Of a stretch of DNA of 64,000 bases, positions 5,021 to 48,888 are shown in pieces. The notes under the pieces are model-generated. The model had not been told where the DNA came from and ran no database searches. It saw nothing but the letters and a program-made list of their open reading frames with translations. A program made the position numbers and the translations under genes. The first letter of the stretch is position 1; each line of letters begins with the position of its first letter. Source of the DNA: Clostridium sp. 'deep sea' (GTDB lineage Bacteria > Bacillota > UBA994 > PWPR01); contig NZ_CP063353.1 of NCBI RefSeq assembly GCF_014931565.1, positions 1,302,001 through 1,366,000 on the forward strand, read 5' to 3'.

Positions 5021-5605
5021 TTAATTCTTTCTTCCCATAATTTTATCGACTATTCCATATGAAACTGCATCCTCAGCAGTTAGCCAATAATCTCTATCAA
5101 CATCACGGGCAACCTTTTTTATATCAGTACCAGTATGATGAGCTAATATTTTATTAAGACGCTCACGTGTTTTTAATATTTGACGGGCGCTAATTTCAAT
5201 ATCAGAAGCCTGACCCTGTGCACCACCATGTGGCTGATGAATCATAACCTCAGCATTTGGCAAAATAAATCTTTTACCATCAGCACCACCAGCTAATAAA
5301 ACAGATGCCATACTGGCTGCTAAACCAACACAAATTGTTGATACATCGGCTTTTATATGTTGCATAGTATCATAAATAGCTAATCCTGCGTTAACTACAC
5401 CTCCAGGGCTATTTATGTAAAGATGAATGTCTTTATCTGGGCTTTCACTCTCTAGAAATAAAAGCTGAGCAATTATAGTGTTTGCAACATTATCATCAAT
5501 GGGGCTACCTAAAAAAACAATACGTTCTTTAAGTAGTCGTGAATAGATATCATAGCTTCTTTCACCGCGATTAGTTTGCTCTACTACCATTGGAACTAAG
5601 TTCAT
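5021..5605 (-). CDS. clpP: ATP-dependent Clp protease proteolytic subunit ClpP
   Basis: This serine peptidase forms the tetradecameric barrel that works with ClpX. The protein has 194 residues. The catalytic triad sits at canonical positions: Ser98 in GLAASMAS, His123 in MIHQPHGG and Asp172 in RDVDRDYW. The ATG at 5605 follows GGGAGG. It lies between tig and clpX on the same strand, the conserved Firmicutes order. Confidence 0.98.
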
Positions 5606-5689
5606 TAATTCAACCTCCCATACTTAATAATATGATATTACCGTTAATAACTCCTGCAACTTTTAAATATTAGCTAATTTTTTTTGCTC

Positions 5690-7003
5690 TTACTCATTGT
5701 TCCCTTGCTCAGCCTCAATTACAACTGCTTTTTCAGTAATTAATTCTATTGCACGATCTTTTTTCCAACCGTCCTGTAATTGCTGCATAGAATTTGGTTG
5801 AGCTTTAAACATTTTTTTAATATCCTTAACCTTTTGATTATAAGCTTTTGCCATATCTTCAATTCGAGACTCAAACTCATCTTCATTAAGATCTATATTC
5901 TCTGTATTGACAATTTTTTCTAAAACTAAATCTGTTTTAACTCTGCGCTCTGCTTCACTGCGCATTTCTTGTCGATAATCTTCCATAGTTTTGCCAATCA
6001 TTTGCATGTACTGCTCTACAGAGATACCATAATTTTGTAAATTACGAGTACTTTCATTAATAATTGCATCTATCTCCTGCTCAATCATAGGCTCAGGAAT
6101 TTCTACTTCAGATGCATCTACTACTTTAGCTAATACTTCATTACGGAATTTCATGTCTGCTTGGTATTTGGCATTTTCTTCCATTTTTTTCATGGTATCT
6201 ACACGTAAATCTTCAACAGTCTCAAATTCACTTACTTCTAAAACAAAGTCAGTATTTAATTCTGGTACAATTTTACGTTTAACTTCATGAACATGAACCT
6301 TAAAAATTGCCTCTTTACCAGCCAATTCTTCGCTTTGGTAAGGATCTGGGAATGTAACTTTAACTTCTACATCATCTCCTGCTTTACTACCAACTAATTG
6401 TTCTTCATAACCAGGTATAAAACTATTTGAACCTAGTTCTAACATATAGTTTTCAGCAGCACCACCAGCAAAAGCTTCTCCGTCAACAAATCCTTCATAA
6501 TCTATTACAACACTATCTCCATCTAAAGCAGCATCTTCAACGCTCTCTAAACGAGAATGTTTTTCACGCATTGTTTTAAGTTCATCTTCAACTTTTTCCT
6601 CTGTTACAACTTCTACTTCTTTTGAAGCTTCTATACCAGTATATTGCCCTAAGACAACTTCTGGTTTAACTACAACTTTTGCTGTATAAGTAAAAGGTTT
6701 TCCTTGCTCAATATTGGCTTCTGTTATCTCTGGCTGGTCAACTGGATTAATTCCACTCTCTTTAACAGCCTCTGGATATGTTTCATTTAATAAGAAGTCA
6801 ATAGCGTCATCATAAAATATCTCTACACCAAAACGTGACTCTAATAAACGTCTAGGAGCTTTTCCCTTACGAAAACCTGGTAATGTAATGTCACGTGACA
6901 CCTTTTTATAAGCTTTTACTAAAGCTTTATCTACTCTTTCAGCCGAAACTTCAACTTTTAGTTCTATAACATTGGTTTCAACTTTGGTACTTGTAACGTT
7001 CAT
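5690..7003 (-). CDS. tig: Trigger factor (ribosome-associated chaperone and prolyl isomerase)
   Basis: Trigger factor binds nascent chains at the ribosome exit tunnel. The start is placed at 7003 (MNVTSTKVE), directly after GGAGG at 7011-7015. A longer frame to 7111 adds a low-complexity extension not typical of the family. The resulting 437 residues match family length. The N-terminal domain carries the ribosome-docking signature LPGFRKGKAP. The FKBP domain follows at about residues 155-245 (VVIDYEGFVDGEAF, PGYEEQL), then the helical C-terminal chaperone arms. It is the first gene of the tig-clpP-clpX set, with four tRNA genes upstream. Confidence 0.96.
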   Translation of the reverse strand: MNVTSTKVETNVIELKVEVSAERVDKALVKAYKKVSRDITLPGFRKGKAPRRLLESRFGVEIFYDDAIDFLLNETYPEAVKESGINPVDQPEITEANIEQGKPFTYTAKVVVKPEVVLGQYTGIEASKEVEVVTEEKVEDELKTMREKHSRLESVEDAALDGDSVVIDYEGFVDGEAFAGGAAENYMLELGSNSFIPGYEEQLVGSKAGDDVEVKVTFPDPYQSEELAGKEAIFKVHVHEVKRKIVPELNTDFVLEVSEFETVEDLRVDTMKKMEENAKYQADMKFRNEVLAKVVDASEVEIPEPMIEQEIDAIINESTRNLQNYGISVEQYMQMIGKTMEDYRQEMRSEAERRVKTDLVLEKIVNTENIDLNEDEFESRIEDMAKAYNQKVKDIKKMFKAQPNSMQQLQDGWKKDRAIELITEKAVVIEAEQGNNE

Positions 7004-11750: not shown

Positions 11751-14105
11751 TTATTTATACATAAAAAACCTCTCAATTGCTGATACAATGTTCTCTGCAA
11801 TGGCATTTTGTCCATTTGTACTATTTAAGAACTGTCTTTCTGTGGGGTTTGATATAAAGCCCATTTCAATTAAAGCCGAAGGCATTTTCCAATGTTTTAT
11901 TACATAGAAACCTTTTGGAATGATCCCTCTACTTCTAAATCCTGTTGCTGTAACCAAACCATCTTGAAGACAACGAGCCAATCTTTCACTCTCTTGTTTA
12001 GAGTAGTAATAGGTTTCAACACCTGAACCTTGTCCTACATCTACAGAATTAGCGTGAATACTTATGGCAATATCTACATTTAAACTATTTACATACTCAA
12101 CACGTTCCTCTAATGATACCCTAGTATCGTTATTTTCTCTAGTCATCACAACAGTAACGCCTTTACTAACTAATATATCTCTTACCTTTTTAGCTACCTC
12201 TAAGTTTAGTGTTTTTTCTAATACACCTGCTCTAGCAGCTCCCGAATCAGATCCTCCATGTCCTGGATCAAGGGCAATAACTTTTCCACTTAGTGATGAA
12301 CTCAATAACACTAACTGAATATTTTTACTAAAACCAGTTGTATTAACTTTGTACGTACCTAAATTGCTTAAGTTAACAAGTAATTGAGAGCTCTCAGCAG
12401 TATTACTTAACTTAATCGTTTTAGCAATTTTACTATTTATTTCTTTTGTTTCTTCTTTAACTGCTTTACTATACGGAAAGTCTAATAACAAGTTATCATC
12501 TAACAAGTTTTGAAAAACTGTAAAGTTGGCTGGTTTATCAAATGATAAATCAATTGTTAATCTTCCATCCGCTTCAGTAATTTTCATATCCGTTAAAGCA
12601 GAGCCTAACTCAACTTGTAAACCTTCATTATTTTTTATTACACTATACGAGATTGGCTCGGCCAACACGATTTTAACTTCTACATCACTTCCTACTGTAG
12701 CTTTAGTAATACTAGAAATCATACTTGGCTTTTCACCAAAGCTAATATTATTGATATTCATGTTGTTGAGGGTAAAAGTAAGCTCCTTGGCCACATCTTG
12801 AGAATCGTGATCTCCCTCTACTAATCTATTATTTATGCCAACTAACCATTCTGCTATAAATCCTTCTTTACCATTTTGAGTTTGTACCTTTACCCAATCT
12901 GGCTTACGCTCTAAAACCTTTAAAGGCTCTCCTCGTAGAACGGTATCTATAACAGGAAACGTAGTTCCAGGGCCAGTTCTTACATTAACGTTATTTCGCA
13001 ACATTTCTAAGTCTAAAGTTAATAACCAGTCAGCAACCCATAACTTTTCATTCTTATACATTACATTATACCAACCAATGGTTTGACCAACTACTTGTAG
13101 TTTAGTGCCACCATCTACTGTTGCTCTAATTGTATTTGAATCTGCTGTACTTGGTTCGGTACGTAAGTTTACTTTTGCTGAGCTGATAACCCCAAATACT
13201 GGCTTATGAGGCTCCTCAAATAAGCTTTCTAACTTGTAGTCTACTAAGTTTGCAGCGTTTATTTGAATTTTACTCTTTTCCACAGTAATAGGCGGGTCTG
13301 GCTCGCTTGGATCTATAGGGTCTGTTGGCTCTGTTGGCTCCACTGGGCTACCATCACTGGGCAATAAAAAGATTGCCAAATAACCACCAGTTACTGGTTT
13401 TATTTCCAGTTTCGACTCTTTAGTTGTACAGTCTAAAACTATGCGTGAAACCAACGGATTATAGCTTAACTGACTAGTGCGTGCCTGGGTGTAATAATCA
13501 CTAGTTACTGAAATTGTTTTAGTTCCTGCATTCAATTTTGCCCCATTAAAGTCTATTACCTGTCTATTAGGGTCAGATAAGCTAAATGTATTATAGCTGT
13601 ATTCTCCATCAATCTTCACTAATATAGCTTGTTTATCTTCAGCTCTAGCTGCTATAACCTCAGTTATACTTGATGATGGTGAATTAATATCAATACGTCT
13701 TGCACTTCCTGTCCATTTTACTTCATAACCTAAAATTTCGCTCACAAATCTTAACGGTACATAGGTTCGGTTATTAATAATTTGAGGAGCTACATCGAGA
13801 GTAAATGTTTGGCTATCTCTGGTAACAGTATTCTTATCTATTGTTAATACTATTTTACTTGAGCCATTAAATATAGTTACTGTTCTATTTTCTCCGTTCC
13901 ACTTTATTTGAGAACCTAATTTTTCAGTAATTATACGTATGGGTGCTATAGACTTATTATTAACAAGCACTGGCTTAAATTCATTGCCCAATTTTTCGCC
14001 ATCTATGTACAAACTAATATCATTAACTGCAAATGCAATATTAAACATATTTAAAATCAATGCCGCTATTAAAACTAATGCCCAAACTCTTTTGTAGTGG
14101 TTCAT
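11751..14105 (-). CDS. N-acetylmuramoyl-L-alanine amidase with stalk, SH3 and AMIN domains
   Basis: This secreted peptidoglycan hydrolase cuts the MurNAc-L-Ala bond. It has 784 residues. Signal peptide 1-26 ends NIAFA. A copper-amine-oxidase-N-like stalk domain follows at about 30-140 (LYIDGEKL, APIRIITEKLG, VPLRFVSEILGYEV). Next are an AMIN-like domain (about 150-250), a proline/acid linker (PTEPTDPIDPSEPDPP), two bacterial SH3 domains (about 302-360 and 368-425), a second AMIN-like region (about 435-595) and Amidase_3 (about 608-780). Zinc and catalytic residues are visible in DPGHGG, LEKTLNLE, ISIHAN and LIEMGF. The ATG at 14105 follows GGAGGA. A broken paralogue lies immediately upstream. 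Confidence 0.93.
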   Translation of the reverse strand: MNHYKRVWALVLIAALILNMFNIAFAVNDISLYIDGEKLGNEFKPVLVNNKSIAPIRIITEKLGSQIKWNGENRTVTIFNGSSKIVLTIDKNTVTRDSQTFTLDVAPQIINNRTYVPLRFVSEILGYEVKWTGSARRIDINSPSSSITEVIAARAEDKQAILVKIDGEYSYNTFSLSDPNRQVIDFNGAKLNAGTKTISVTSDYYTQARTSQLSYNPLVSRIVLDCTTKESKLEIKPVTGGYLAIFLLPSDGSPVEPTEPTDPIDPSEPDPPITVEKSKIQINAANLVDYKLESLFEEPHKPVFGVISSAKVNLRTEPSTADSNTIRATVDGGTKLQVVGQTIGWYNVMYKNEKLWVADWLLTLDLEMLRNNVNVRTGPGTTFPVIDTVLRGEPLKVLERKPDWVKVQTQNGKEGFIAEWLVGINNRLVEGDHDSQDVAKELTFTLNNMNINNISFGEKPSMISSITKATVGSDVEVKIVLAEPISYSVIKNNEGLQVELGSALTDMKITEADGRLTIDLSFDKPANFTVFQNLLDDNLLLDFPYSKAVKEETKEINSKIAKTIKLSNTAESSQLLVNLSNLGTYKVNTTGFSKNIQLVLLSSSLSGKVIALDPGHGGSDSGAARAGVLEKTLNLEVAKKVRDILVSKGVTVVMTRENNDTRVSLEERVEYVNSLNVDIAISIHANSVDVGQGSGVETYYYSKQESERLARCLQDGLVTATGFRSRGIIPKGFYVIKHWKMPSALIEMGFISNPTERQFLNSTNGQNAIAENIVSAIERFFMYK

Positions 14106-14399: not shown

Positions 14400-16019
14400 T
14401 TATTCATTTCTTAAAAAGTTCTCAATTGAAAACACAATATTTTCAGCAATTTTTTGTTGAACTTTGTCGTTTAAAAGCTGATTACGCTCATAGTCATTAT
14501 CCATAAAACCAATTTCCATTAAGGCTGAGGGCATTTTCCAATTTTTTGTTACTCTTAATCTAGTAGAGGGTTTAATGCCTCTATTTCTAAAACCTGTGGC
14601 AGATAAAAGACCAGTTTGTAAACACTGAGCTAGTCTCTCATTCTCTGGTTTAGGATAGTACCATGTCTCTACTCCAGAGGCTTTTCCTGTGCCATATCTA
14701 GTGTCGTTAACATGAATACTAACAGCTAAATCTGCCTTACAGCCATTTACAAGATCTACTCGTTCATCTAATAAAACTGTTTTATCATTCACCCTAGTCA
14801 TAAACACAGTTATACCTTTATCTGTTAGAATTTTTTGCACCTTTAAAGCAACTGGTAAGGTAATCTCTTTTTCATAAATACCACCTCTATAAGCACCTGG
14901 TCTGCTACCACCATGTCCTGCATCAAGAGCTATTACTTTACCACTTAAACTAGAGTTTAGTAATACCAGCTGCACATTTTTACTAAAACCAGCTGTATTA
15001 ACTTTGTAACTTCCAAGGTTATTTAGCGACACTTCTAGTACAGCACTATCTGGCTTGTTATTTAGCTTAACTGCTGATGCAATTTTATTATTTAGCTGCT
15101 TAGTTTGCTCTTTAACAGCTATGCTATTAGGAAAATCTAGTACTAGTTTTTTTTCTAATAAATTTTGAAAAACTGTAAACTTAGTAGGTTTATCAAAACT
15201 TAAATTAAGAGTAACTCTTCCCTCATTCTCACTGACCTGTAAGTCAGTTAAAGCTGCCCCAAACTCAATCTCTAAACCTTCATTATTTTCACTTATATTG
15301 TAAGCAATTGCTTCAGCCATATTTATTTTTACTTCAACATCATTACCAACTGCTTTTTTAGTTACACTTTTAATAATATTAGTTCTATCGCTAAAGCTTA
15401 CCTCATTTATGTTAGTATTTTTTAGGGAAAAGGTTAGCTCTTTAGCTACATCCTGAGAATCATTCTCTACCTCAATCAGTCTATCATTTATAGCCACAAG
15501 CCACTCAGCAATAAATCCCTCTTTGCCATTTTTGGTTTTTACCTTAACCCAATCTGGTTTGCGTTCTAAAACCTTAAAATGCTCGTCACGCATTACCATA
15601 TCTACAACTGCATAAGTTGTTCCTGGTCCTTGCCGAACATTTACGTTATTTCGTTTCATTTTTAGGTCAAGGCTTAAAAGCCAGTCGGCAACCCATAATT
15701 CTTCATTTTTGTATATAACGTTATACCAACCAAAAGACTGTCCTATGACTTGTAGTTTTGTTCCTCCATCAACAGTTACCCTAACTGTTTTTGAGTCTGC
15801 GGTGCTGGGCTCAGTACGTAGGTTAACTCGGGCAGAGCTAATAACTCCATACACTGGGGCTTGAGGTTCTTGAAACAGGCTTTTTAATTTGTAATCTTTT
15901 AAATTAGGCACACTTATTTGCAACCTACTTTTATCTACATTATTATTAGGCTTTGGTTCATCTGGCTTAGGTGGCTCTTCTGGAGTTGGCTTTGTATCCA
16001 CTATCTTCTCTTCTAACAT
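14400..16019 (-). pseudogene. 3' fragment of a second amidase: SH3-SH3-AMIN-Amidase_3
   Basis: These 539 codons match residues about 245-784 of the intact downstream amidase. A proline/acid linker is followed by two SH3 domains (VNLRTEPSTADSKTV, NNVNVRQGPGTTY), the AMIN-like region and Amidase_3 with DAGHGGSRPGA, VSIHVND and LMEIGFMD. In the same frame the homology extends upstream to about 16170, matching the stalk-to-AMIN junction of the paralogue. The first in-frame ATG (16019) falls inside the domain and has no signal peptide, so the fragment could not be exported. Catalytic residues are intact, suggesting recent inactivation, or a sequence error for someone to exclude. Confidence 0.8.
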
Positions 16020-16144
16020 AATTGCTAAGTAGCCTGATATCTCTTTTATAACTATGTTTGATTCTTTGACTGTACAGTCAAGTACTATTTGAGTAAGGTT
16101 AGGTTTTGCTTGAATAACACGAACCTGCGTGAAATATTCACTTG

Positions 16145-16657
16145 TTACGGGAATTTTTTCAGTCTTAGTATTATTTTTGCTTGTTTATGATCTTCTACTC
16201 GGGCAACTATAATTTCATTAACCTTTGCTGAAGGTGAACTAATGTTTATGCTATTAGTTTTACCATTCCACTGAACTTCATAGTTTAATAATTCACGTAA
16301 AATTTTTATTGGTATATAAGTAATGTTATTTATAATTTGAGGAGCTACCGTAAAGTTAAAGGCTTGTCCATTTTTAAAAACTGTTTTTTTGTCTATTGTT
16401 AAAACTATTTCAGTTAAATCTTTTGTTATAGTTACAGTTCTATACGCTTCACTCCATTTAATATCTAATCCTAAATATTCTTGTAAAATACGTGCAGGAG
16501 CAAGTGAAGTATTGTTGATCATAATTGGTGTGTATTTGTTAATCTTTTCTCCATTTATGTATAAACTAATATCCGTATTTGCTAGCGCTACATTAAACAA
16601 ATTAATAATTAAAGATGTTACTAAAACTAATACCCAAACTCTTTTATTATGTTTCAT
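16145..16657 (-). pseudogene. 5' fragment of the second amidase: signal peptide and stalk domain
   Basis: These 170 codons match residues 1-160 of the intact amidase. A signal peptide (KRVWVLVLVTSLIINLFNVALA) is followed by the copper-amine-oxidase-N-like domain (LYINGEKI, APARILQEYLGL). The frame then breaks. Between VEDHKQA and the sequence matching TKTISVTS, only 8 nt remain (about 16170-16177) where the paralogue has 102. The loss of 94 nt shifts the frame and ends the ORF at 16145. The ATG at 16657 follows GGAGGACG, so expression signals are intact. A secreted stalk fragment could still be made. Confidence 0.8.
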
Positions 16658-29524: not shown

Positions 29525-31531
29525 TTATAGATACTTGTTAAACCAGTCAACAATAGCTTGTAAACGTTCTACTCTACGCTTTGGTTGACCAGACCTAGAG
29601 AGGTCATGATTTTCATTAGGGAAACGTAGTAATTCTACTTTTTGTTTTAATCTCTTTAAAAATGTATATAATTGATCAGCCTGTTCCATACACGACCTAA
29701 TATCTGACTCTGCATGGATGATTAATAAAGGTGTCTTTATATTTTCTACATATTTAAGAGGAGACATATCCCATAGTTTATCAAAGTTATGCCATGGTAG
29801 GTAACCAAACTCAGCCTCACTAAAATAGCAGCCACAATCACTCATACCGCTAAAGCTAAGCCAGTTATATACACCTCGCTGAGCAACCGCTGCTTTAAAT
29901 CTATTGCTATGACCTATAATCCAAGCAGTCATAAAGCCACCAAAGCTACCACCTGTTACCCCTAGTCGTTTGTTATCTACATATGAAAGTTTTTCAACCT
30001 CATCTATTACTTTCATTAAGTCGCCATAATCTCCTCCACCAAAATCGTTGAAATTAGCACAGGTAAATTCTTGACCATAACCATTGCTTCCTCTGGGGTT
30101 AGTAAACAGTACACAATAACCAGCTGAGGCTAATAATTGAAACTCAAAAAAGAATAATGGGGCATACATTACATGGGGTCCACCATGTACCTCTAACACT
30201 AGGGGATACTTTTCACTTTCATTAAAGTTATAAGGCTTTAATAGCCAACCTTGAATATCCCAATTATCTTTGCCTTTAAACCATATTTCTTCTGGCTCAG
30301 CTACATAACACTCATTTAATAAATCTTTATTTACCATAGTAATTTGCTCAAACTTGTTGTTTTGCAAATCTAGTATTGCTATATCTCCGGCAGTAGTACT
30401 ATTGGCAAACTGAATAACGGCCTTATTATGCTCTGCATTTATGCTGTAGCCATTAATTTGAATGTTTTGTTTAGTTATTGTTGTTATTTCAGCTGACTTA
30501 ATATTACACTTTGCTAACTGGGTATTGCCATGTTTAGAGTAAGTGAAATATATATATGTACCACATTTGCTATAGATAGGAGCAGGAATTGAGGTTTTTA
30601 AGGTCATATCCGCAATATGCATTGAACCAACATTGTAATCAAAATCTGCTAAAATATCTGTTTTATTAAGGCTATTGATATCTACTATATAAATACTAAT
30701 GTTAGTAGCTGTATGGTGTTGTAATTCGTGACCATAAAAGGCTATTTTTTTGCCATCGGTACTAAAAGTAGGACTAGCAACTAATCCTTTACACTTGGTT
30801 AATCTTTTTTGCTCTTTGCTTTTTAGATCAATTATATAAAGATCTGAATCCATAATATTATAACCTATATCTTCAGCCATATTGCAGCTAAACGCTATAT
30901 TTTGGCTATTAGGTGACCATGTAAATTCATTTATGCTATAACTACCACTTGTTAGCTGTTCTATTTTGTATGTTTTTAAATCTAGTATAAAGATATGCTG
31001 CACCTTATTGTCTATTAAACCAGCTTGAGGCAAACCATTATATTTATAAAGTAGCTTAGTAACTCTTTGAGATATTTCTTTTTGATCTTTAATTTTTTTA
31101 TCATTTTCATCTTCGGCACACTTTAATAAATCATCAACTGTTTGTTTTTCATACATCTCTGCTAAAAACGCTATTTTTGTGCCACATGGTGACCATACGG
31201 GTTCGCCAACACCATATCTAAAGTCTACAACTGGCTCTGCTTCTCCACCATTGACAGTCATCACATATATTTTTTTACGATCTTTACGGCTTGAGTTGAA
31301 GGCAATTTTGTCACCATTTGGTGACCATCTAGGATTTGAATCTGAGTTTCCGTAGGTAAACTGACAATTGTTATTGGAAGCGATATCATATAAACAAATA
31401 TTAGAAAGGTATTTTTTTTCTTCCATACTACTTTTAACATATAATATTTTTTTTGAATTTGGCGCAATTTGGGGATCATATACAAAGTTAAACTGCATAA
31501 AGTCATTTACATTAAACGGTCGTTTGTTCAC
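29525..31531 (-). CDS. S9-family prolyl oligopeptidase / acylaminoacyl peptidase, copy 3
   Basis: The 668-residue protein starts at GTG 31531, after GAGGAGGG. The propeller blades (WSPNGDKIAFNSSRKDRKKI, WSPCGTKIAFLAEM) and the hydrolase domain match the other copies: Ser in GVTGGSFGGFMTAW, Asp in HAESDIRSCMEQADQLY and His in NENHDLSRSG. The nucleophile elbow reads SFGG rather than SYGG, a conservative change. More AT-rich codon choices and divergence (SC for CP after the Asp) suggest a different substrate preference from copy 2. Confidence 0.93.
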   Translation of the reverse strand: MNKRPFNVNDFMQFNFVYDPQIAPNSKKILYVKSSMEEKKYLSNICLYDIASNNNCQFTYGNSDSNPRWSPNGDKIAFNSSRKDRKKIYVMTVNGGEAEPVVDFRYGVGEPVWSPCGTKIAFLAEMYEKQTVDDLLKCAEDENDKKIKDQKEISQRVTKLLYKYNGLPQAGLIDNKVQHIFILDLKTYKIEQLTSGSYSINEFTWSPNSQNIAFSCNMAEDIGYNIMDSDLYIIDLKSKEQKRLTKCKGLVASPTFSTDGKKIAFYGHELQHHTATNISIYIVDINSLNKTDILADFDYNVGSMHIADMTLKTSIPAPIYSKCGTYIYFTYSKHGNTQLAKCNIKSAEITTITKQNIQINGYSINAEHNKAVIQFANSTTAGDIAILDLQNNKFEQITMVNKDLLNECYVAEPEEIWFKGKDNWDIQGWLLKPYNFNESEKYPLVLEVHGGPHVMYAPLFFFEFQLLASAGYCVLFTNPRGSNGYGQEFTCANFNDFGGGDYGDLMKVIDEVEKLSYVDNKRLGVTGGSFGGFMTAWIIGHSNRFKAAVAQRGVYNWLSFSGMSDCGCYFSEAEFGYLPWHNFDKLWDMSPLKYVENIKTPLLIIHAESDIRSCMEQADQLYTFLKRLKQKVELLRFPNENHDLSRSGQPKRRVERLQAIVDWFNKYL

Positions 31532-32152: not shown

Positions 32153-33421
32153 TTATAATATTACTCTATTATTATATTTTTGATTATATAAACTACAGAA
32201 TACTCCATTTTTAAATAACAATTGATCTGGAGTACCTTGTTCCATTACTATGCCATTCTCTAATGTTATTATATAATCTGCTTTTAATGCTAAGTCTATA
32301 TCATGAGTTGCTATTACTAGTGTGCTTAGCTGTTGTTTTAGGGTATTAAAAACCAGTTCACTAGTATGGTTATCTAACGCTGATGTTGGTTCATCAAGTA
32401 AAATAACAGGTGCTTGACGCACCAAGGCTCTAGCTAATGCTACTCTTTGTTTTTGCCCACCCGATAACTCAATACCTTTTTCACCGATTACGGTTTCATA
32501 TTTATTATTTAATTGCAAAATAAAGTCATGTGCTTGAGCTAATTTTGCCGACTGGCTAACTTCTTTGTTAGTAGCTTGTAAATTGCCAATTTTAATATTA
32601 TCCATTACTGAACTAGTAAACAAATAAGCATTTTGAGGCACATAGGCTAACGAGTTTCTAATTTGTGATAGATTTAGCTCATTAACTCCTGTTCCATTAA
32701 TGTTTATACTACCTTGCTCTGGAAAGCATATTCCAACAATAAGTTTTAATAAAGTGCTTTTACCACTACCGCTGTGTCCTACAATAGCTGTATACTTTGC
32801 TTTAGGAATTTGTACTGATACTTTATTTAATATTGGTATATTTTCATGATAAGAGTATGTAACATTGTTAAATTCTATTGCTGGTAAGGTGTGGTACTCT
32901 TTAATAATAGGTTCCCTATCTAGTTTAATTTTAGGTTTAATATTTGCTATTTCTTTAATTTGTTTTTGGATTCTCGTTAAGGATACACATGCTTGTTCAG
33001 ACTGCTTTAAATAATAAGGTAATCTTTGAAATAAAGAAGAAACATGTCTTCTTAATTGATTGGCAATTAATACTTCGGGTATTGTATTTAAACCAAGTAA
33101 TACCAGATAACTACCCAGCATTATCACAGACAGAATTACTATCATACTAATTAATTGATTAAAGGTGCCTAATACTGCCTCAACATTAACTCTTTTTATA
33201 TTATTTTGCTCTAATACTTGGCTTTCTTTAGTATAGCAGTTTGCATATTTGTGCTCTAAATTAAAGCTTTTTAGTACCACTAAACCATTTATAATTGAGC
33301 TTACTTTTAGTACTAGTTTTTCAATTTGTGCCTGTCTTTTTTTACTTAGTGTTTTAAAACTACTAGATAAATGCTTGTTACCTAATGCACCTAATATGCT
33401 AATGAAAACACAGGTAATCAT
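32153..33421 (-). CDS. ABC exporter, second half-gene, 3' part (membrane end and ATPase)
   Basis: The 422-residue frame covers the end of a type-1 exporter membrane domain and a complete ATPase. Walker A is GHSGSGKST, the signature LSGGQKQRVALAR, Walker B VILLDEPTSALD and the switch His is in ATHD. In the upstream frame the membrane domain continues at 33442-33891. Homology in the 3' frame reads back through WLTYVSRQL to a TTTTTTTAGGGGG run near 33450, where one missing base joins the frames. If joined, the protein has about 578 residues, normal for a TMD-ATPase half exporter. The likely role is export of the peptide encoded at 35842. Confidence 0.85.
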   Translation of the reverse strand: MITCVFISILGALGNKHLSSSFKTLSKKRQAQIEKLVLKVSSIINGLVVLKSFNLEHKYANCYTKESQVLEQNNIKRVNVEAVLGTFNQLISMIVILSVIMLGSYLVLLGLNTIPEVLIANQLRRHVSSLFQRLPYYLKQSEQACVSLTRIQKQIKEIANIKPKIKLDREPIIKEYHTLPAIEFNNVTYSYHENIPILNKVSVQIPKAKYTAIVGHSGSGKSTLLKLIVGICFPEQGSININGTGVNELNLSQIRNSLAYVPQNAYLFTSSVMDNIKIGNLQATNKEVSQSAKLAQAHDFILQLNNKYETVIGEKGIELSGGQKQRVALARALVRQAPVILLDEPTSALDNHTSELVFNTLKQQLSTLVIATHDIDLALKADYIITLENGIVMEQGTPDQLLFKNGVFCSLYNQKYNNRVIL

Positions 33422-33441
33422 TAACTGCCGGCTTACATAGG

Positions 33442-33891
33442 TTAGCCATATAAGCCCCCTAAAAAAAGGAAAATACTGGAAACAAAACTAGGTATTGTTA
33501 TTCTATAGTAAGCTTCAATATGCTCCATATCACTATTTAACAGAGTTACTATTTTTCCTGAATCAATTCTATCTACAAACTTATAGTCTTCCTGCAAAAC
33601 TGTTTGAACTAACTTTTGTCGTAAAATTGCTACTGATTTTAAACTTAGTATACCGTATAAGTAATCAAAAATATTTTGCAATACATTTAATAATTGCATA
33701 ATAGAAAACAATATAACTACAGTAAATATTAAATCTCGAAAATTGCCCGCTAACATCGACTTATAACTGCTACCAATCATAGATGTAAATACAAATTCTA
33801 AAGCCATCCAAGATAAACAACCTAGGATAATAAAAAAGTAGTACTTTTTCTTATTATGAATAGAATTTAAAACATGCAAATATTTCTTCAC
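33442..33891 (-). CDS. ABC exporter, second half-gene, 5' part (membrane segments)
   Basis: These 149 residues hold the first two or three transmembrane helices (YYFFIILGCLSWMALEFVFT, DLIFTVVILFSIMQLLNVLQ) and the coupling-helix region (LVQTVLQEDYKFVDRIDSGK). The frame then ends after FLFLGGLYG at the homopolymer noted in the 3' part. GTG at 33891 follows AAGGAGG, which overlaps the end of the first exporter gene, so the two are translationally coupled. It is either a real one-base deletion, a phase-variable switch, or a sequencing error. Confidence 0.8.
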   Translation of the reverse strand: MKKYLHVLNSIHNKKKYYFFIILGCLSWMALEFVFTSMIGSSYKSMLAGNFRDLIFTVVILFSIMQLLNVLQNIFDYLYGILSLKSVAILRQKLVQTVLQEDYKFVDRIDSGKIVTLLNSDMEHIEAYYRITIPSFVSSIFLFLGGLYG

Positions 33892-33893
33892 TC

Positions 33894-35579
33894 TTAGTTA
33901 CCTCCTTGTTGTAAAATAAGATATTTAGGATAGTCAATTAATTTTCCATCTAAAATAGCTATTACTCTATTCGCTAAAGCTAAAGACTCTTGTTTATGGG
34001 TAACTATCAAACAGGTTTTATCTTTTGTGTTATCTGTTATTGTTTGCCAAAGTTTAGAGGCAGTATGTAGATCTAAGGCTGAGGTGGGTTCATCAAGAAG
34101 CCAAATTGGAGCATTTTTAATGATAGTGCGAGCAACTGCTATACGTTGATTTTGACCCCCTGAAAAATTACTTGCTGATTCCTTTACAATTGTTTCATAT
34201 CCGTTCTCATTATCTTCTATAAACTCATTTGCTTGCGCTTGTTGCGCAGCTATTCTTATATCTTGTTGAGTAGCATTTTTATTGCCATCAGCTATGTTAT
34301 TAGCTATAGATTGGGGAAACAAATAAGACTCTTGAAAAACCAAGCCAAGCTGTTCTCTTAGTTGATGTTTATTCCATTCTCGAATTTCTTTACCATATAC
34401 ACAAATACTACCTGTATAATTTGGATATAACCCAAGTAATAGCTTTATAATTGTGCTTTTTCCTGAACCACTGCTACCAACTAAAGCTAGCTTTTCACCT
34501 GCCTGTACTATAAAACTAATATTTTGCAAGGTCTGATCTGGGGCAGATTTATACTTAAAAGAAACATTATTAAAGCAAATAACAGGGTTGCACTTAACTA
34601 ACTCTACCTTGGGTAGTTGCTTTTCTTGCTTTAAAACTATAATGCTATAAACTCTTTTTACAGAAACCATACCACGTTTAATGTTTCCTAAAAGAGTTGG
34701 TATGCCACTTATTGGCCAACGAATATCATCAATTAAAAATGTAAATGCAGTTAATTGTCCAATACTTAAATCACCTTTAATAACAAAATAACCACCAAAC
34801 ACTAAACTAATAGCATATGGCATTATTCCTATCATATTACCTAGTATATTTAATATTACTCTGTTTAATAAAATTGATTTACCATATATTATTGTTTTTT
34901 TAATTTTCTTTGAAATACTATTAGAAAACTGTTGTTGTAGATTATAACTATGAATTGTTTCTACACCTAATACTATTTCTTGGGCTTCATTATTAATAAG
35001 TGATAATTGCTTTTGCATGCTTAAGCTACGTTTTCCAATAATATCTGTTAGTTTTATCGCTAAAAAGTAAAAAAAAGGTATAGTTATTAAAGAAACCAGC
35101 GTTAATTGCCAGTTACTAATAATCATATAAGTTAAAGCAATAATAGCTCTTATTGGATTTAAAAATATGTTAATTAAAGTTATATGTATTAATGATTCAA
35201 TTTGCTCTAAATCACTGCTTAACTTTGTTAAATAATCACCAGAGCTTGACACAGTAACACTTGCATAATCTGCTTTTAGAATATTTTGGGTTGCTGTTGT
35301 ACGCAGATTATGCATATTTCTTTCAGTAAAGTAGCCCATGCTTTTTTCACGAATATAGCGCATAACTGCTAATGAAATCATTATTGACATTAAAGTAAAT
35401 AAGGAATTACTAAAGTTAGCTCTATTTTGAGCAAAGGCATAGTCCATAGTTTTACCCATAAAAATGGTTTGCATAACTTTTGCAAAAGTTGAAAATATCG
35501 CAAAAAAGATACCTATCAATAATAATTTTTTGTTTAATAATTTCTTAATAAACCCAAACAAACTTATTTCTTTGCTCAT
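33894..35579 (-). CDS. ABC exporter half-transporter (membrane domain plus ATPase)
   Basis: The 561-residue type-1 exporter has six predicted membrane helices (about 15-300). Its ATPase has Walker A GSSGSGKST, Q-loop LVFQESYLFP, signature NFSGGQNQRIAVAR, Walker B IWLLDEPTSALD and switch His in VTHKQ. There is no N-terminal C39 peptidase domain, so leader removal would need another protease. It pairs with the adjacent half-transporter, probably as a heterodimer. It lies downstream of the radical SAM enzyme and the small Cys peptide, separated by a partial terminator. Confidence 0.92.
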   Translation of the reverse strand: MSKEISLFGFIKKLLNKKLLLIGIFFAIFSTFAKVMQTIFMGKTMDYAFAQNRANFSNSLFTLMSIMISLAVMRYIREKSMGYFTERNMHNLRTTATQNILKADYASVTVSSSGDYLTKLSSDLEQIESLIHITLINIFLNPIRAIIALTYMIISNWQLTLVSLITIPFFYFLAIKLTDIIGKRSLSMQKQLSLINNEAQEIVLGVETIHSYNLQQQFSNSISKKIKKTIIYGKSILLNRVILNILGNMIGIMPYAISLVFGGYFVIKGDLSIGQLTAFTFLIDDIRWPISGIPTLLGNIKRGMVSVKRVYSIIVLKQEKQLPKVELVKCNPVICFNNVSFKYKSAPDQTLQNISFIVQAGEKLALVGSSGSGKSTIIKLLLGLYPNYTGSICVYGKEIREWNKHQLREQLGLVFQESYLFPQSIANNIADGNKNATQQDIRIAAQQAQANEFIEDNENGYETIVKESASNFSGGQNQRIAVARTIIKNAPIWLLDEPTSALDLHTASKLWQTITDNTKDKTCLIVTHKQESLALANRVIAILDGKLIDYPKYLILQQGGN

Positions 35580-35704
35580 ATTGTAGCCCCTAATATTTTA
35601 ATTAGATATGAATAGTATAAATATTGTAAATATAAGTATATATTTAGTATATCAAAATACAATTGTAACATCTAGTGTATACAATATTATTAGTTAAAAA
35701 ATAC

Positions 35705-35780
35705 AAACTAGATAATCAAGATAAACCATTACATAATTTAAAAGCAATATAGCTGGTTTATTTAATGATTATCTAGTTTA
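35705..35780 (-). terminator. Long hairpin between precursor peptide and exporter genes
   Basis: AAACTAGATAATCA (35705-35718) pairs with TGATTATCTAGTTT (35767-35780), and an inner TAAACCA pairs with TGGTTTA. On the minus strand GTATTTTTTAAC follows. It is probably a partial terminator or a 3' stabiliser that lets the peptide message exceed the exporter message. Confidence 0.65.
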
Positions 35781-35841
35781 TAAAATCTTTTACAAACTTA
35801 ATAATTTACTGCTATAAACTAAATATAAATTGACCAAAGTT

Positions 35842-35937
35842 TTATTTATTGCAGCATCCTTCGTTACAAGATCCGTCACCAGGTTTAGAAATTTCTTGAA
35901 GAGCTAGTCCTCTAACTTTATCAGTTAAATTAATCAT
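35842..35937 (-). CDS. Putative RiPP precursor peptide, 31 aa, Cys-rich tail
   Basis: The ATG at 35937 follows a very strong ribosome site (AAAGGGGGG). The peptide opens MINLTDKVRG, has a leader-like helix (LALQEI), then a KPGDG hinge and a C-terminal SCNEGCCNK with Cys24, Cys28 and Cys29. It lies 63 bases after the radical SAM/SPASM gene and ahead of two ABC exporter genes on the same strand, the normal setting of a RiPP precursor. Thioether formation on the three Cys, as in sactipeptides or ranthipeptides, is a plausible modification. I do not recognise a named precursor family. The leader/core boundary is inferred from the GDG hinge. Confidence 0.75.
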   Translation of the reverse strand: MINLTDKVRGLALQEISKPGDGSCNEGCCNK

Positions 35938-35961
35938 GTTTTACCCCCCTTTCGTATAATT

Positions 35962-35996
35962 TTTATCTTTAGGCTAATGCCTATAAAGATACGAAA
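35962..35996 (-). promoter_or_regulatory. Intercistronic hairpin before precursor peptide
   Basis: On the minus strand TATCTTTA pairs with TAAAGATA and GGC with GCC around ATTA, between the radical SAM stop and the precursor ribosome site. There is no T-run after it, so it is more likely a processing or stability element than a terminator. Confidence 0.45.
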
Positions 35997-36000
35997 TAAG

Positions 36001-37425
36001 TTAAAGTGGCTGTCCTACCTTTGATAAATTTTCTTTAAATAGTTCGAAGTTGTTTTCCTTAACTAACTTAACAATCCAACCAGCTTTTTGCTTGAAAAAA
36101 TCTATTCTTGTTTTGCAAAACCAGTCTGGAATTTTGTTAATATTTTTTTCTACTAAATATATTTTAGCTGGACATCCTTTGCATTCATCTACAAACCAAC
36201 ACTCTTGACATTGTGGGCTATTCTCTTTATATGCAATACTAACTTTTTCTTTTGCCTTTTGAATTGTCTCATCAAGATTATTATTAAAAACGTTACCAAT
36301 TTTTAATTCATTTATCATAGCTAAATTATGGCATGGGTAAATGTCACCATCAGGGGTAATACATATTACTCCTTCACCTAATGGACATAAAGCATCATAC
36401 ACCTGTTTTTTACCTAACCTAAACAACGAATCTACCCATTCCCAGTCCATAACAGGGGATTTTTCTAATAATATGTCTTCATAAAAACTATTAAATAACT
36501 CATTTACATTCTTTAATTCTTCTTTGAGCTCAAATGACATAGACATATCTTCTCCCATACAACTATGACATAACACCATATTTTTGCCGTTTAAATCTAA
36601 ATCATTTATAATATATTTTCTTAACTGTTTCATGTTATAACCAGCTTGCAGGTGGTGTTTAGTATAAACTGTTTCTATAGAAATATTAGTGTCTTTAATA
36701 TGTTTACGTAACTTGCTAATATTACTTTTCACTAAGTCATAAGAGCCACATCCATCTTCAAAGGGCCTCATTTTATCGTGAATATTTTTAGGTCCATCAA
36801 TGCTAACTGTAATTTGCATGTCATACTTTTTAAGAATATTAATAATATGATCATTAACAATTGTGCCATTTGTTATTACCGAAAAGTTTGGTGTTGTTTT
36901 TTGCTGAGCAATAAAACCTTCAGCTAAATATGTAATCATATCTGTGTTAAGTAATGGCTCTCCACCAAAAAATAATATACTACTAAGGTTTTTGCCTTTA
37001 AAAAATTCTAATATTTGACTAGCTACATGCTTGCTTAACAGCGCTATATCTCTACCATATGACCCTTGCGATGCATAACAATACTTACATCTTAAATTGC
37101 AATCATGAGAAACGTTAATGACTACTTGCCTAAAGTAATTATCAGGCTTTTTGCTATCTTCAAAACTCTCATTCATCCTTTTCTTAACATCATCACATAT
37201 TTCATTAAAATATTTAGCAATTTTTTCTTCCATATTCGTGGGAGCAGCTACCGATAAATCTATAGTGTTATTTTCTTCAACATAATTAATAAAATCATCT
37301 TCTACAGCATACATGCTCTGTGTTGACGGCTGATATAAAACATAATCTCCAAATTGAGTTTTGAAATAGCAAAAATCAAAAGTGATTTCTGGCAAAAGTA
37401 TTCTAAATTTTTTAACATCGTACAC
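36001..37425 (-). CDS. Radical SAM/SPASM peptide maturase
   Basis: The 474-residue protein starts at GTG 37425, 9 bases after AAGGGGG. The radical SAM cluster motif is Cys109-Cys113-Cys116 (CNLRCKYC), with GGEPLLN at 154-160. The SPASM domain has Cys347, 365, 406, 409, 415, 418 and 437 (CPLGEG, CHN, CQEC, CKGC, WFC), enough for two auxiliary [4Fe-4S] clusters. Residues about 24-52 (FGDYVLYQPSTQSMYAVEDD) resemble the PqqD-like recognition element of SCIFF-type maturases. It therefore probably modifies the adjacent Cys peptide. The anaerobic sulfatase-maturase group is the main alternative, but no sulfatase is nearby. Confidence 0.88.
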   Translation of the reverse strand: MYDVKKFRILLPEITFDFCYFKTQFGDYVLYQPSTQSMYAVEDDFINYVEENNTIDLSVAAPTNMEEKIAKYFNEICDDVKKRMNESFEDSKKPDNYFRQVVINVSHDCNLRCKYCYASQGSYGRDIALLSKHVASQILEFFKGKNLSSILFFGGEPLLNTDMITYLAEGFIAQQKTTPNFSVITNGTIVNDHIINILKKYDMQITVSIDGPKNIHDKMRPFEDGCGSYDLVKSNISKLRKHIKDTNISIETVYTKHHLQAGYNMKQLRKYIINDLDLNGKNMVLCHSCMGEDMSMSFELKEELKNVNELFNSFYEDILLEKSPVMDWEWVDSLFRLGKKQVYDALCPLGEGVICITPDGDIYPCHNLAMINELKIGNVFNNNLDETIQKAKEKVSIAYKENSPQCQECWFVDECKGCPAKIYLVEKNINKIPDWFCKTRIDFFKQKAGWIVKLVKENNFELFKENLSKVGQPL

Positions 37426-38000: not shown

Positions 38001-38927
38001 TTACAATGATTCATCTACTGAATCGCTATAGATAATAGTCCACATAGCGTTCCACCAGCTTGGGTTATTACATTTCCAAGAATTACAATGTTTACACATT
38101 GGCAGTTTACTGTATTCTTGATTTATATGAATTTCTCTTATTTGCTTTAATTTTTCACCTTGCCAAACCTCTTGCAAACTTTGTTTTGTTAAATCTCCCA
38201 AAACAATGTTTGCGTTGTAATCCATACAGCATAAAGGAACTTCTCCATTCCAATGTACATTTAAGATTTGCCATAGCTTATAACAAGGTATTCTTTGTAA
38301 TCTTATCGGATGATATTCATTTCCTCTATCGGGCTGATTGCCGTGCCAATCATCATAAGAAACAGTTCTTACATCATCAACTATTACTCTCCAAAACTTT
38401 TCAAACTGTTGTAAAAGAGGCATAAGTTCATGCATCAAAATATAATCGCATACAATTAAAGGTTTAGTTAAACCACGTTTATTACGCTCATTAACAAAAT
38501 GAATTATTCTCTCAACCACCTGGTAGTAATCTAGCCCTTGTAGCTGTTTATATTGTTGCTCGTTAATACCATAAAAGCTAATATGAATTTCGTCTACTAA
38601 ATTATTATCTAAAATCTCTTTAATGTGTTCATTTGTACATAAACTCATATTGCTATGCAATATTACAGAGCTTTGAGGTTGCAGCTCTTTACATTTTTTT
38701 ATAATGTTAATAATACGTTTATCCATAAATGGTTCACCCATTAAAAATGGTATTAACGTATTCACTTCATTACATTGTTTGAGAATATTTTCAATAAGCT
38801 CATTGCTCATTTTACCTTTTTCTCTTGTCATTATTGAATGACAGCAAAACTCACAGCTAGCATTACAATAAGAGTGGGTCTCGAATTGAACAGTTTGGGG
38901 TCTTTTTTCTAGGGACTCTATTACCAC
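38001..38927 (-). CDS. Radical SAM/SPASM protein of the surface-glycan locus
   Basis: The 308-residue protein has a radical SAM motif at Cys21-Cys25-Cys28 (CNASCEFC). Core elements are LMGEPFMDKR (in the position of GGEP) and HISFYGINEQQY. The C-terminus has SPASM-like cysteines (PCYKLW, CCMDYN, MCKHCNSWKC). The start is GTG 38927, after AGGGGTGA. It is the last gene of a set with glycosyltransferases and amino-sugar genes, 10 bases after the acetyltransferase-dehydrogenase gene. SPASM enzymes in such clusters may modify sugars, lipids or peptides; the substrate here is unknown. Confidence 0.82.
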   Translation of the reverse strand: MVIESLEKRPQTVQFETHSYCNASCEFCCHSIMTREKGKMSNELIENILKQCNEVNTLIPFLMGEPFMDKRIINIIKKCKELQPQSSVILHSNMSLCTNEHIKEILDNNLVDEIHISFYGINEQQYKQLQGLDYYQVVERIIHFVNERNKRGLTKPLIVCDYILMHELMPLLQQFEKFWRVIVDDVRTVSYDDWHGNQPDRGNEYHPIRLQRIPCYKLWQILNVHWNGEVPLCCMDYNANIVLGDLTKQSLQEVWQGEKLKQIREIHINQEYSKLPMCKHCNSWKCNNPSWWNAMWTIIYSDSVDESL

Positions 38928-45369: not shown

Positions 45370-48300
45370 TTAAGTTCTAGCTTGCCAAATAATTTCTAGA
45401 TTAGTATCTGATCCTGCTGTTGTACTGGCGTATGCAATACGAGCATACTGTAAAAATGTTGTTGAAGATAGTATTGTTGCTTGTGTTGAAGCCAGCGTAA
45501 TTGTAGCAGCATCAGTAATCCAACTAATATTATCAGGGCTTAATTCTAAACGTATATCTGCTGAGTTTGATAATCCTGAGTTCTCAATCCAGAAAGAATA
45601 TATTTGTCGTTCTGATACATCTCTAGCAGTTGAACCAGCAAAGAGCGTGGCTGATGTTACTGTTTCAGTTGCTGTTGTAAAATCTCTAAAGATAGTTACA
45701 CTATCAGAATTAGCTGTTAAGTCTCTTATATCTATATCTGTTGAGGTTATAGATGAGCTTACTGTTCCTACTACATTCACAGCACCGTTAGCATCTGTCT
45801 CTACTGCGGTTAATGTTCCTCCATTTGAACCATAGATCTGAACACTATCTGAAGTTGCAGTTAAATCTCTAATGTCTAGGTCTGTTGCGGTCACTGTAGC
45901 ACTTACTGTTCCTACTACATTCACAGCACCGTTAGCATCTGTTTCTACTGCTGTTAATGTTCCTCCATTTGAACCATAGATCTGAACACTATCTGAAATT
46001 GCAGTTAAATCTCTAATGTCTAAATCTGTTGCGGTCACTGTAGCACTTACTGTTCCCACTACATTCACAGCACCATTAGCATCTGTCTCTACTGCGGTTA
46101 ATGTTCCACCGTTAGATCCATAGATTTGTACGTTATCTGATGTTGCGGTTAAATCTCTAATATCTAAATCTGTTGCGGTCACTGTAGCACTTACTGTTCC
46201 CACTACATTCACAGCACCGTTAGCATCTGTCTCTACGGCTGTTAATGTTCCACCGTTAGATCCATAGATTTGTACGTTATCTGATGTTGCAGTTAAATCC
46301 CTAATATCTAAATCTGTTGCGGTCACTGTAGCACTTACTGTTCCTACTACATTTACCGCACCATTAGCATCTGTTTCAACTGCGGTTAATGTTCCACCGT
46401 TAGATCCATAGATTTGTACGTTATCTGATGTTGCAGTTAAATCTCTTATATCTATATCTGTTGAGGTAATAGAAGCACTTACTGTTCCTACTACATTTAC
46501 CGCACCGTTAGCATCTGTTTCAACTGCGGTTAATGTTCCGCCGTTAGAGCCGTAGATTTGTACGCTATCTGAGGTTGCTGTTAAGTCTCTAATGTCTAGG
46601 TCTGTTGCGGTCACTGTAGCACTTACTGTTCCCACTACATTCACAGCGCCGTTAGCATCTGTCTCTACAGCGGTTAATGTTCCGCCGTTAGAGCCGTAGA
46701 TTTGTACGCTATCTGAGGTTGCTGTTAAGTCTCTAATGTCTAGGTCTGTTGCGGTCACTGTAGCACTTACTGTTCCTACTACATTCACAGCACCGTTAGC
46801 ATCTGTCTCTACAGCGGTTAATGTTCCGCCGTTAGAGCCGTAGATTTGTACGTTATCTGAGGTTGCTGTTAAGTCTCTAATGTCTAGGTCTGTTGCGGTC
46901 ACTGTAGCACTTACTGTTCCTACTACATTCACAGCGCCGTTAGCATCTGTCTCTACAGCGGTTAATGTTCCGCCGTTAGAGCCGTAGATTTGTACGCTAT
47001 CTGAGGTTGCTGTTAAGTCTCTAATGTCTAGGTCTGTTGCGGTCACTGTAGCACTTACTGTTCCTACTACATTCACAGCACCGTTAGCATCTGTCTCTAC
47101 AGCGGTTAATGTTCCGCCGTTAGAGCCGTAGATTTGTACGCTATCTGAGGTTGCTGTTAAGTCTCTAATGTCTAGGTCTGTTGCGGTCACTGTAGCACTT
47201 ACTGTTCCTACTACATTCACAGCACCGTTAGCATCTGTTTCTACTGCTGTTAATGTTCCTCCATTTGAACCATAGATTTGTACGTTATCTGATGTTGCGG
47301 TTAAGTCTCTTATATCTATATCTGTTGAGGTTATAGAAGCACTTACTGTTCCTACTACATTCACAGCACCGTTAGCATCTGTTTCTACTGCTGTTAATGT
47401 TCCTCCATTTGAACCATAGATTTGTACGTTATCTGATGTTGCGGTTAAGTCTCTTATATCTATATCTGTTGAGGTAATAGAAGCACTTACTGTTCCCACT
47501 ACATTCACAGCGCCGTTAGCATCTGTTTCTACTGCTGTTAATGTTCCACCGTTAGATCCATAGATTTGTACGTTATCTGATGTTGCAGTTAAATCCCTAA
47601 TATCTAAATCTGTTGCGGTCACTGTAGCACTTACTGTTCCCACTACATTCACAGCACCGTTAGCATCTGTCTCTACTGCGGTTAATGTTCCACCGTTAGA
47701 TCCATAGATCTGAACACTATCTGAAGTTGCAGTTAAGTCTCTTATATCTAAATCTGTTGCGGTCACTGTAGCACTTACTGTTCCCACTACATTCACAGCA
47801 CCGTTAGCATCTGTCTCTACAGCGGTTAATGTTCCGCCGTTAGAGCCGTAGATTTGTACGCTATCTGATGTTGCAGTTAAATCTCTTATATCTATATCTG
47901 TTGAGGTAATAGAAGCACTTACTGTTCCTACTACATTCACAGCACCGTTAGCATCTGTCTCTACTGCGGTTAATGTTCCACCGTTAGAGCCGTAGATTTG
48001 TACGCTATCTGAGGTTGCTGTTAAGTCTCTTATATCTATATCTGTTGAGGTAATAGAAGCACTTACTGTTCCCACTACATTCACAGCACCGTTAGCATCT
48101 GTTTCTACTGCTGTTAATGTTCCACCGTTAGATCCATAGATTTGTACGTTATCTGATGTTGCAGTTAAATCCCTAATATCTAAATCTGTTGCGGTCACTG
48201 TAGCACTTACTGTTCCCACTACATTCACAGCACCGTTAGCATCTGTCTCTACTGCGGTTAATGTTCCACCGTTAGATCCATAGATCTGAACACTATCTGA

Positions 48301-48888
48301 AGTTGCAGTTAAGTCTCTTATATCTAAATCTGTTGCGGTCACTGTAGCACTTACTGTTCCCACTACATTCACAGCACCGTTAGCATCTGTCTCTACAGCG
48401 GTTAATGTTCCGCCGTTAGAGCCGTAGATTTGTACGCTATCTGATGTTGCAGTTAAATCTCTTATATCTATATCTGTTGAGGTAATAGAAGCACTTACTG
48501 TTCCTACTACATTCACAGCACCGTTAGCATCTGTCTCTACTGCGGTTAATGTTCCACCGTTAGAGCCGTAGATTTGTACGCTATCTGAGGTTGCTGTTAA
48601 GTCTCTTATATCTATGTCTGTTGAGATCATAGTAGCGCTTACTGTACCTGCTATCTTTAGTGCACCTGTGGCATCAGTCTCTATCGCTGTTAAGGTTCCG
48701 CCATTAGAGCCATAGATTTGTACACTATCTGAGGTTGCGGTTAAATCTCTTATATCTATATCTGTTGTTGTAACAAAAACTGCACCATCTGAATCAACCT
48801 TTACAGCTACATCAGTTGCGCCGTCTAAACCATATATTCTGGTCAAAAGTTGTTTAGGCCAGTTTTGAAATACATTATAATTTGGCAT
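45370..48888 (-). CDS. Repetitive structural protein with 21 copies of a 48-residue repeat
   Basis: The 1172 residues comprise a 41-residue N-terminus (MPNYNVFQNWPKQLLTRIYG), 21 consecutive 48-residue units (residues 42-1049, core DLTATSDSVQIYGSNGG) and a 123-residue C-terminal domain. Units differ mainly at SVQ/NVQ and SASITS/SATVTA. They are rich in T, S, N, D and G, almost free of K, lack Cys, and look like a beta-solenoid. There is no signal peptide and no anchor. The C-terminal domain matches that of the preceding gene's product. The ATG at 48888 follows AAGGAGGG. It is probably a glycosylated spore-surface or exosporium-like fibre, judged from context. The C-terminus resembles DUF6385-type proteins as I recall them. 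Confidence 0.85.
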   Translation of the reverse strand: MPNYNVFQNWPKQLLTRIYGLDGATDVAVKVDSDGAVFVTTTDIDIRDLTATSDSVQIYGSNGGTLTAIETDATGALKIAGTVSATMISTDIDIRDLTATSDSVQIYGSNGGTLTAVETDANGAVNVVGTVSASITSTDIDIRDLTATSDSVQIYGSNGGTLTAVETDANGAVNVVGTVSATVTATDLDIRDLTATSDSVQIYGSNGGTLTAVETDANGAVNVVGTVSATVTATDLDIRDLTATSDNVQIYGSNGGTLTAVETDANGAVNVVGTVSASITSTDIDIRDLTATSDSVQIYGSNGGTLTAVETDANGAVNVVGTVSASITSTDIDIRDLTATSDSVQIYGSNGGTLTAVETDANGAVNVVGTVSATVTATDLDIRDLTATSDSVQIYGSNGGTLTAVETDANGAVNVVGTVSATVTATDLDIRDLTATSDNVQIYGSNGGTLTAVETDANGAVNVVGTVSASITSTDIDIRDLTATSDNVQIYGSNGGTLTAVETDANGAVNVVGTVSASITSTDIDIRDLTATSDNVQIYGSNGGTLTAVETDANGAVNVVGTVSATVTATDLDIRDLTATSDSVQIYGSNGGTLTAVETDANGAVNVVGTVSATVTATDLDIRDLTATSDSVQIYGSNGGTLTAVETDANGAVNVVGTVSATVTATDLDIRDLTATSDNVQIYGSNGGTLTAVETDANGAVNVVGTVSATVTATDLDIRDLTATSDSVQIYGSNGGTLTAVETDANGAVNVVGTVSATVTATDLDIRDLTATSDSVQIYGSNGGTLTAVETDANGAVNVVGTVSASITSTDIDIRDLTATSDNVQIYGSNGGTLTAVETDANGAVNVVGTVSATVTATDLDIRDLTATSDNVQIYGSNGGTLTAVETDANGAVNVVGTVSATVTATDLDIRDLTATSDNVQIYGSNGGTLTAVETDANGAVNVVGTVSATVTATDLDIRDLTAISDSVQIYGSNGGTLTAVETDANGAVNVVGTVSATVTATDLDIRDLTATSDSVQIYGSNGGTLTAVETDANGAVNVVGTVSSSITSTDIDIRDLTANSDSVTIFRDFTTATETVTSATLFAGSTARDVSERQIYSFWIENSGLSNSADIRLELSPDNISWITDAATITLASTQATILSSTTFLQYARIAYASTTAGSDTNLEIIWQART
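45742..48765 (-). repeat. 144-bp coding tandem repeat, 21 units
   Basis: The 144-bp unit repeats in perfect frame. A higher-order duplication is visible: the stretch starting at 47521 recurs at 48097 with offset 576 bp, exactly four units. Synonymous differences (for example GTTAGATCC and ATTTGAACC variants) mark sub-families, so the array has grown by unequal recombination in blocks. Confidence 0.92.

Follow-up and report, generated by a model that had tools for sequence, protein, structure and literature searches.

Orphan RiPP loci built around radical SAM-SPASM enzymes are common, and several are found in this genome alone. Within the 64-kb stretch of DNA analysed here (the window), an earlier note had pointed to a compact locus of this kind, in which a Cys-tailed ORF of 31 residues with a strong ribosome site lies between a radical SAM/SPASM enzyme and two ABC exporter half-genes. 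Both the ORF (35842-35937, minus strand) and its placement between these genes are present as described. The locus raises the question of whether the short ORF encodes the substrate of the neighbouring enzyme and, if so, what kind of product the pair would make.

Organization and genomic context of the locus

The genes lie on the minus strand in the order maturase, precursor, ABC half 1, ABC half 2. The maturase (36001-37425) has 474 residues, a GTG start, an RRE-like N-terminus and seven SPASM cysteines. A spacer of 63 bp separates the stop codon of the maturase from the putative precursor, MINLTDKVRGLALQEISKPGDGSCNEGCCNK. The precursor's ATG is preceded by GAAAGGGGGGTAAAAC, with a strong ribosome site, AAAGGGGGG (35940-35955), only a few bases away. 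After a gap of 262 bp follows ABC exporter half-transporter 1 (33894-35579; 561 residues, with transmembrane and nucleotide-binding domains and without a C39 peptidase domain), and then half-transporter 2 (32153-33891). Downstream of these genes, a terminator-like stem-loop with a T-run (31775-31752) may end the operon.

The description of the locus as compact is fair for the genes as a whole, but a strong hairpin of some 80 nt (35702-35782, minus strand) parts the peptide from the ABC genes. This long, A/U-rich and self-complementary element is followed by a U-rich stretch, and the region that contains it (35640-35841) has a computed folding energy of -48.2 kcal/mol (z -5.0). A repeat element was ruled out, there being no second copy in the genome; the hairpin may instead act as an attenuator or as an mRNA-stabilising element.

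We compared this region with that of a genome from the same genus, in which 0.8 kb separates a triad of S9 peptidases (81, 79 and 58% identity) from the DegT gene behind it. In the window the same flanking genes enclose 8.8 kb, including the RiPP operon, that is missing from the relative. This marks the locus as accessory, a pattern expected of such biosynthetic genes, and the S9 peptidases next to it as the older residents. One of these peptidases (29525-31531) was weighed as a leader peptidase, since the genome G259 also has a radical SAM-ABC-S9 arrangement, and was rejected, since the same-genus genome conserves the triad despite having no RiPP operon, and since a terminator-like site lies between. 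No dedicated leader peptidase was found at the locus, and neither ABC protein has one.

A second radical SAM/SPASM gene (38001-38927, minus strand) adjoins sugar genes and is not counted here as a part of the RiPP system; it encodes a 308-residue protein weakly like the maturases of tungsten-cofactor oxidoreductases, stands at the end of a sugar gene cluster, and has no counterpart at this position in the genome of the same genus. Elsewhere in the window, a protein of about 1170 residues built from near-identical units of some 40 residues each (DIRDLTATSDSVQIYGSNGGTLTAVETDANGAVNVVGTVSA; 45370-48888, minus strand) is encoded beside glycosyltransferase-like and sugar genes.

The exporter and its frame break

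Of the two ABC half-genes reported earlier, half 1 is intact and half 2 is split into two frames (33442-33891 and 32153-33421), with 149 codons followed by 422 in the -1 frame. The break, at TTTTTTTAGGGGG, reads CTT TTT TTA GGG GGC and lies inside a T7-G5 run (33421-33445, minus strand), where a difference of one base in the T or the G run would account for the split. Read in the 0 frame, T TTT TTA also has the form of a classic slippery heptamer for -1 frameshifting, which agrees with the frame of the second part. The split may be due to an error in sequencing, to phase variation, to genuine decay or to slippage by -1.

The one-base break, taken together with a same-genus genome that lacks the locus entirely at this place, raises the possibility that the locus is decaying, with an intact maturase and peptide, a dead exporter and a product that stays in the cell. 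We regard this as unlikely, although it deserves to be taken seriously: the operon's remaining ORFs are unbroken, homopolymer runs such as T7-G5 are typical sites of sequencing error or phase variation, and the slippery heptamer is in the right frame. A second split gene in the window, encoding a cell-wall amidase (14400-16657, minus strand) beside an intact paralogue (11751-14105), may also point to assembly error.

The maturase is a divergent relative of CteB and PapB

The maturase matches the Pfam Radical_SAM (65.2 bits; gathering threshold 29.5) and SPASM (31.2 bits; threshold 21.5) families. The three cysteines of its CX3CX2C radical SAM motif (C109/113/116) and the seven SPASM cysteines that had been noted before (C347, 365, 406, 409, 415, 418 and 437) were all found, and all are invariant in an alignment of 38 sequences at 23-29% identity. 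Its best NCBIfam matches are to PapB (NF047865; 169.7 bits, cut-off 340) and to the SCIFF maturase (TIGR03974; 163 bits, cut-off 425), with weaker matches to cyclophane maturases. Because its scores stay far below every cut-off, the enzyme belongs to no curated family.

Structural comparison led to the same group. The closest solved structure by sequence is CteB (5wgg, E 7e-36), and an AlphaFold model of the maturase (mean pLDDT 80, weak at 299-345) superimposes on CteB (5why) with a Z score of 32.2 and an rmsd of 4.0 over 394 residues; further matches are to anSME (Z 27.8), ChlB (Z 26.6) and TigE (Z 23.0). Only the fold points towards the PqqD- or RRE-like N-terminus suggested earlier: in the whole-model alignment, the strands and then helices of the model from residue 15 on align with CteB from residue 1 on, overlapping the range of its leader-binding domain. 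By NCBIfam, sequence and fold alike, then, the enzyme is CteB/PapB-like, in support of a RiPP locus with a SPASM maturase of this group.

The resemblance to the SCIFF system (CteA-CteB, a ranthipeptide) includes the best fold match, the domain order, the seven-Cys SPASM domain and an adjacent Cys-rich precursor. However, the window peptide does not carry the CQSACKTSC motif of SCIFF precursors, the last SPASM spacing is C-x2-C against C-x3-C in the alignment consensus, and this genome has a separate SCIFF pair (L047). In a phylogenetic tree the window maturase falls outside the SCIFF clade (support 97/97), on a long branch (2.13) whose exact place is unsure. Judged by its sequence, the window enzyme is not a SCIFF maturase.

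Relatives of the maturase and their precursors

No orthologue of the maturase was found in the 100 nearest genomes or in 398 genomes of the phylum, where the best matches (about 31%) are mostly SCIFF maturases, most with a SCIFF peptide alongside; nor did any genome set searched yield an orthologue above 36-37% identity. A scan of genome contigs with the single maturase protein as query gave no match, whereas a two-sequence profile, applied to one genome from each of 84,980 species, recovered 80 loci, of which the motif marks 72 as SCIFF. IMG/VR and plasmids contained no copy of the maturase, and matches in phage records were limited to unannotated human-gut contigs at about 23-33% identity.

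The nearest non-SCIFF maturases are 29-36% identical to that of the window and mostly stand beside differing Cys-containing precursors. They include those of a Bacteroidales MAG (L111, 34%), a rumen MAG labelled Endomicrobia (L112, 36%; leader similar, core not readable) and a Muribaculaceae MAG (L114), whose precursor carries GCLIANGKCTEGGCGIANGKC. A search of 344 genomes from the order of L111 added a near-identical copy (L221) and a further locus (L222, 33%). The precursors of L111 and L221 end in HGCQGLFCRCS, and that of L222, which carries SGCGGDNGNCGSGCGCGG, is a Gly/Cys-rich peptide, SGCGGDNGNCGSGCGCGGDDGNCGSG (L222:6730-6912, minus strand), directly upstream of its maturase (5300-6667, minus strand). 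These Bacteroidales-type loci (L111/L221, L114, L222), to which BGC8 of Porphyromonas gulae is comparable (PMC10352776), resemble the window in having a Cys-containing precursor directly upstream of the maturase and transport genes downstream. They differ in that their precursors are longer and, in L111 and L114, contain GG, whereas a GG leader is missing from the window peptide and the ABC proteins of the window lack C39 domains.

Another orphan locus, in G259 (L109:1235-7395), consists of a radical SAM maturase, a precursor, an intact ABC gene, a truncated second ORF and an S9 peptidase. Its 27-residue precursor, MSKITFSSVSPMDWCFGLGGCGVVKIN (L109:7312-7395, minus strand), carries MDWCFGLGGCGVV and lies behind AAAGGGGGTG, just upstream of the maturase. 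The earlier note had named homologous maturases without a conserved Cys peptide alongside as a ground for refuting its reading. This did not come about, as Cys-containing precursors were present at L109, L111/L221, L114 and L222, although the peptides themselves were not conserved.

Which modification the maturase would install

Precursors of the PapB type carry C-X3-D/E motifs, and PapB accepts Cys-Xn-Asp/Glu with n of 0-6 (PMC9413430). The repeated C-X3-D motifs of PapA (freyrasin, a ranthipeptide) are absent from the window peptide, which has no C-X3-D/E motif at all; an acidic residue lies downstream of Cys24 only, so that the PapB rule fits Cys24-Glu26 alone. The reading of the peptide as a thioether substrate is thus compatible with PapB-type linkage at Cys24, but the C-terminal Cys28 and Cys29 leave no room for it, having no Asp, Glu or Thr acceptor downstream. 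The core spacing would instead fit short rings such as those of streptosactin (GggA-GggB, a sactipeptide), which join Cys25 to Ser28 and Cys31 to Gly34, i to i+3 (PMC8172795). The window maturase gives only a partial match to GggB (NF050038), at 121.9 bits against a cut-off of 650. On sequence, a thioether here may be of the sactipeptide type, to an alpha carbon, or of the ranthipeptide type, to a beta or gamma carbon.

A different reading is that the peptide is the substrate and the modification something other than a thioether, such as a C-C or C-O cross-link, a cyclopropane or an epimerisation, with the cysteines serving metal binding or disulfides. In line with this, the fold is matched by enzymes other than those of the SCIFF system, namely ChlB and TigE, the latter of which reportedly makes cyclopropylglycine, and both the cyclophane-maturase matches and the lack of an acceptor for the vicinal pair would be accommodated. 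We nevertheless consider it improbable, as both sequence and fold place thioether-forming enzymes (CteB, PapB and SCIFF) at the head of the matches, and as cysteines are retained in the otherwise unrelated precursors of related loci.

The precursor is an orphan

We asked how often a small ORF with these features occurs in this genome by counting across 161 kb, comprising the window and seven stretches that surround further radical SAM genes. Of 2471 small ORFs, 57 had a comparable ribosome site, and ten of these also had at least three cysteines (filter: 20-70 residues, good ribosome site, ≥3 Cys). Only two ORFs in the 64-kb window passed, the precursor, with its three C-terminal cysteines, and a ferredoxin, while most of the others adjoin other radical SAM enzymes of this genome and include the SCIFF peptide as well as Cys peptides beside Clo7bot-like and ScmF-like maturases. 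A ribosome site and a Cys count of this kind are rare enough to make noise a very unlikely origin of the ORF.

The earlier statement that the peptide fits no nameable precursor family holds for NCBIfam, Pfam and some 400 genomes. It matched no NCBIfam or Pfam family and found itself alone in its own genome; across the 398 phylum genomes all other matches were at chance level (E >= 0.03), and the weak ones inspected were fragments without a convincing radical SAM neighbour. Other genome-wide matches to the DNA pattern for CxxxCCN were read and contained no convincing precursor. Conservation of the small ORF in relatives was not found among these genomes, so that the second ground for refutation named in the earlier note did come about; this weakens the case for a peptide family, not the reality of the precursor.

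This genome has a second orphan RiPP locus (L043:5524-8678; G000:C1 ~3060523-3063677), with two related precursors (GCSGGNCCNGK and GCGAGDCCNGK) that match no NCBIfam family, a ScmF-like radical SAM/SPASM enzyme, a partner with a weak SPASM match only, and a DrrA-like ABC gene. Both E[IV]SR and the CC-N tail of the window peptide recur in its precursors (EISRGCSGGNCCNGK), a likeness that is suggestive only: of 2000 shuffles, 24 scored as well for one precursor (about 1 in 80) and 33 for the other (about 1 in 60), too many for kinship to be claimed. At another locus (L044:2338-10108; G000:C1 ~547337-555107), three Clo7bot-like maturases (335-372 bits, cut-off 600) are preceded by short Cys-rich peptides such as MKFIVKPKPVNKDYEPWCPTFCPCRWPNRMV, in one case followed by a 555-residue ABC-transporter-like gene.

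A reading in which the small ORF arose by chance or serves as a regulatory leader peptide, and the maturase acts on another substrate, would agree with its lack of conservation in phylum genomes and with the strong hairpin behind it, but is very improbable given its exceptional ribosome site and Cys count, the Cys peptides that likewise stand beside the maturases of related loci, and the absence of any other precursor candidate among the ORFs of the operon.

Proposed mechanism and implications

Taken together, these analyses identify a genuine, uncharacterised radical-SAM RiPP system with an orphan precursor. In enzymes of this group the RRE binds the leader, a 5'-deoxyadenosyl radical abstracts a hydrogen, and the SPASM clusters assist C-S bond formation. 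We think it probable that the operon works in this way, the maturase closing one or more Cys thioether rings in the precursor and the product being exported. The RRE-like N-terminus would bind the leader (about residues 1-18), hydrogen abstraction by the radical SAM centre would strike a residue within the GDGSCNEGCCNK core, and closure of the ring or rings would be aided by the SPASM clusters. Gene order, ribosome site, the family and fold of the enzyme and the conserved ligands of its clusters are established here; the role of the ORF as substrate, the thioether and its positions, the export and any biological activity are inferred. By spacing, the simplest candidates are Cys24-Gly27 and Cys28-Lys31 (i to i+3), with Cys24-Glu26 as the sole PapB-style pair. 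An unlinked protease would take off the leader and the heterodimeric ABC exporter would release the product; the presence of an exporter implies extracellular action, and an antimicrobial or signalling role may be envisaged. Besides the lack of downstream acceptors for Cys28 and Cys29, the orphan state of the precursor, the lack of a close maturase orthologue, the frameshifted exporter half, the missing leader peptidase and the long branch all count against this explanation.

More speculatively, and with the odds well against it, the product may be a peptide of about 8-12 residues that combines a C-terminal pair of vicinal cysteines with one or two very small thioether rings of i to i+3 spacing, possibly binds metal, and is made by a maturase lineage without a described member. 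If true, this tiny-ring topology would stand between streptosactin and the ranthipeptides. As the known PapB rule is impossible at two of the three Cys positions, the regiochemistry may differ. With this locus, the divergent edge of the CteB/PapB group gains an orphan pair of precursor and maturase, which illustrates how many radical SAM RiPP loci fall outside curated families.
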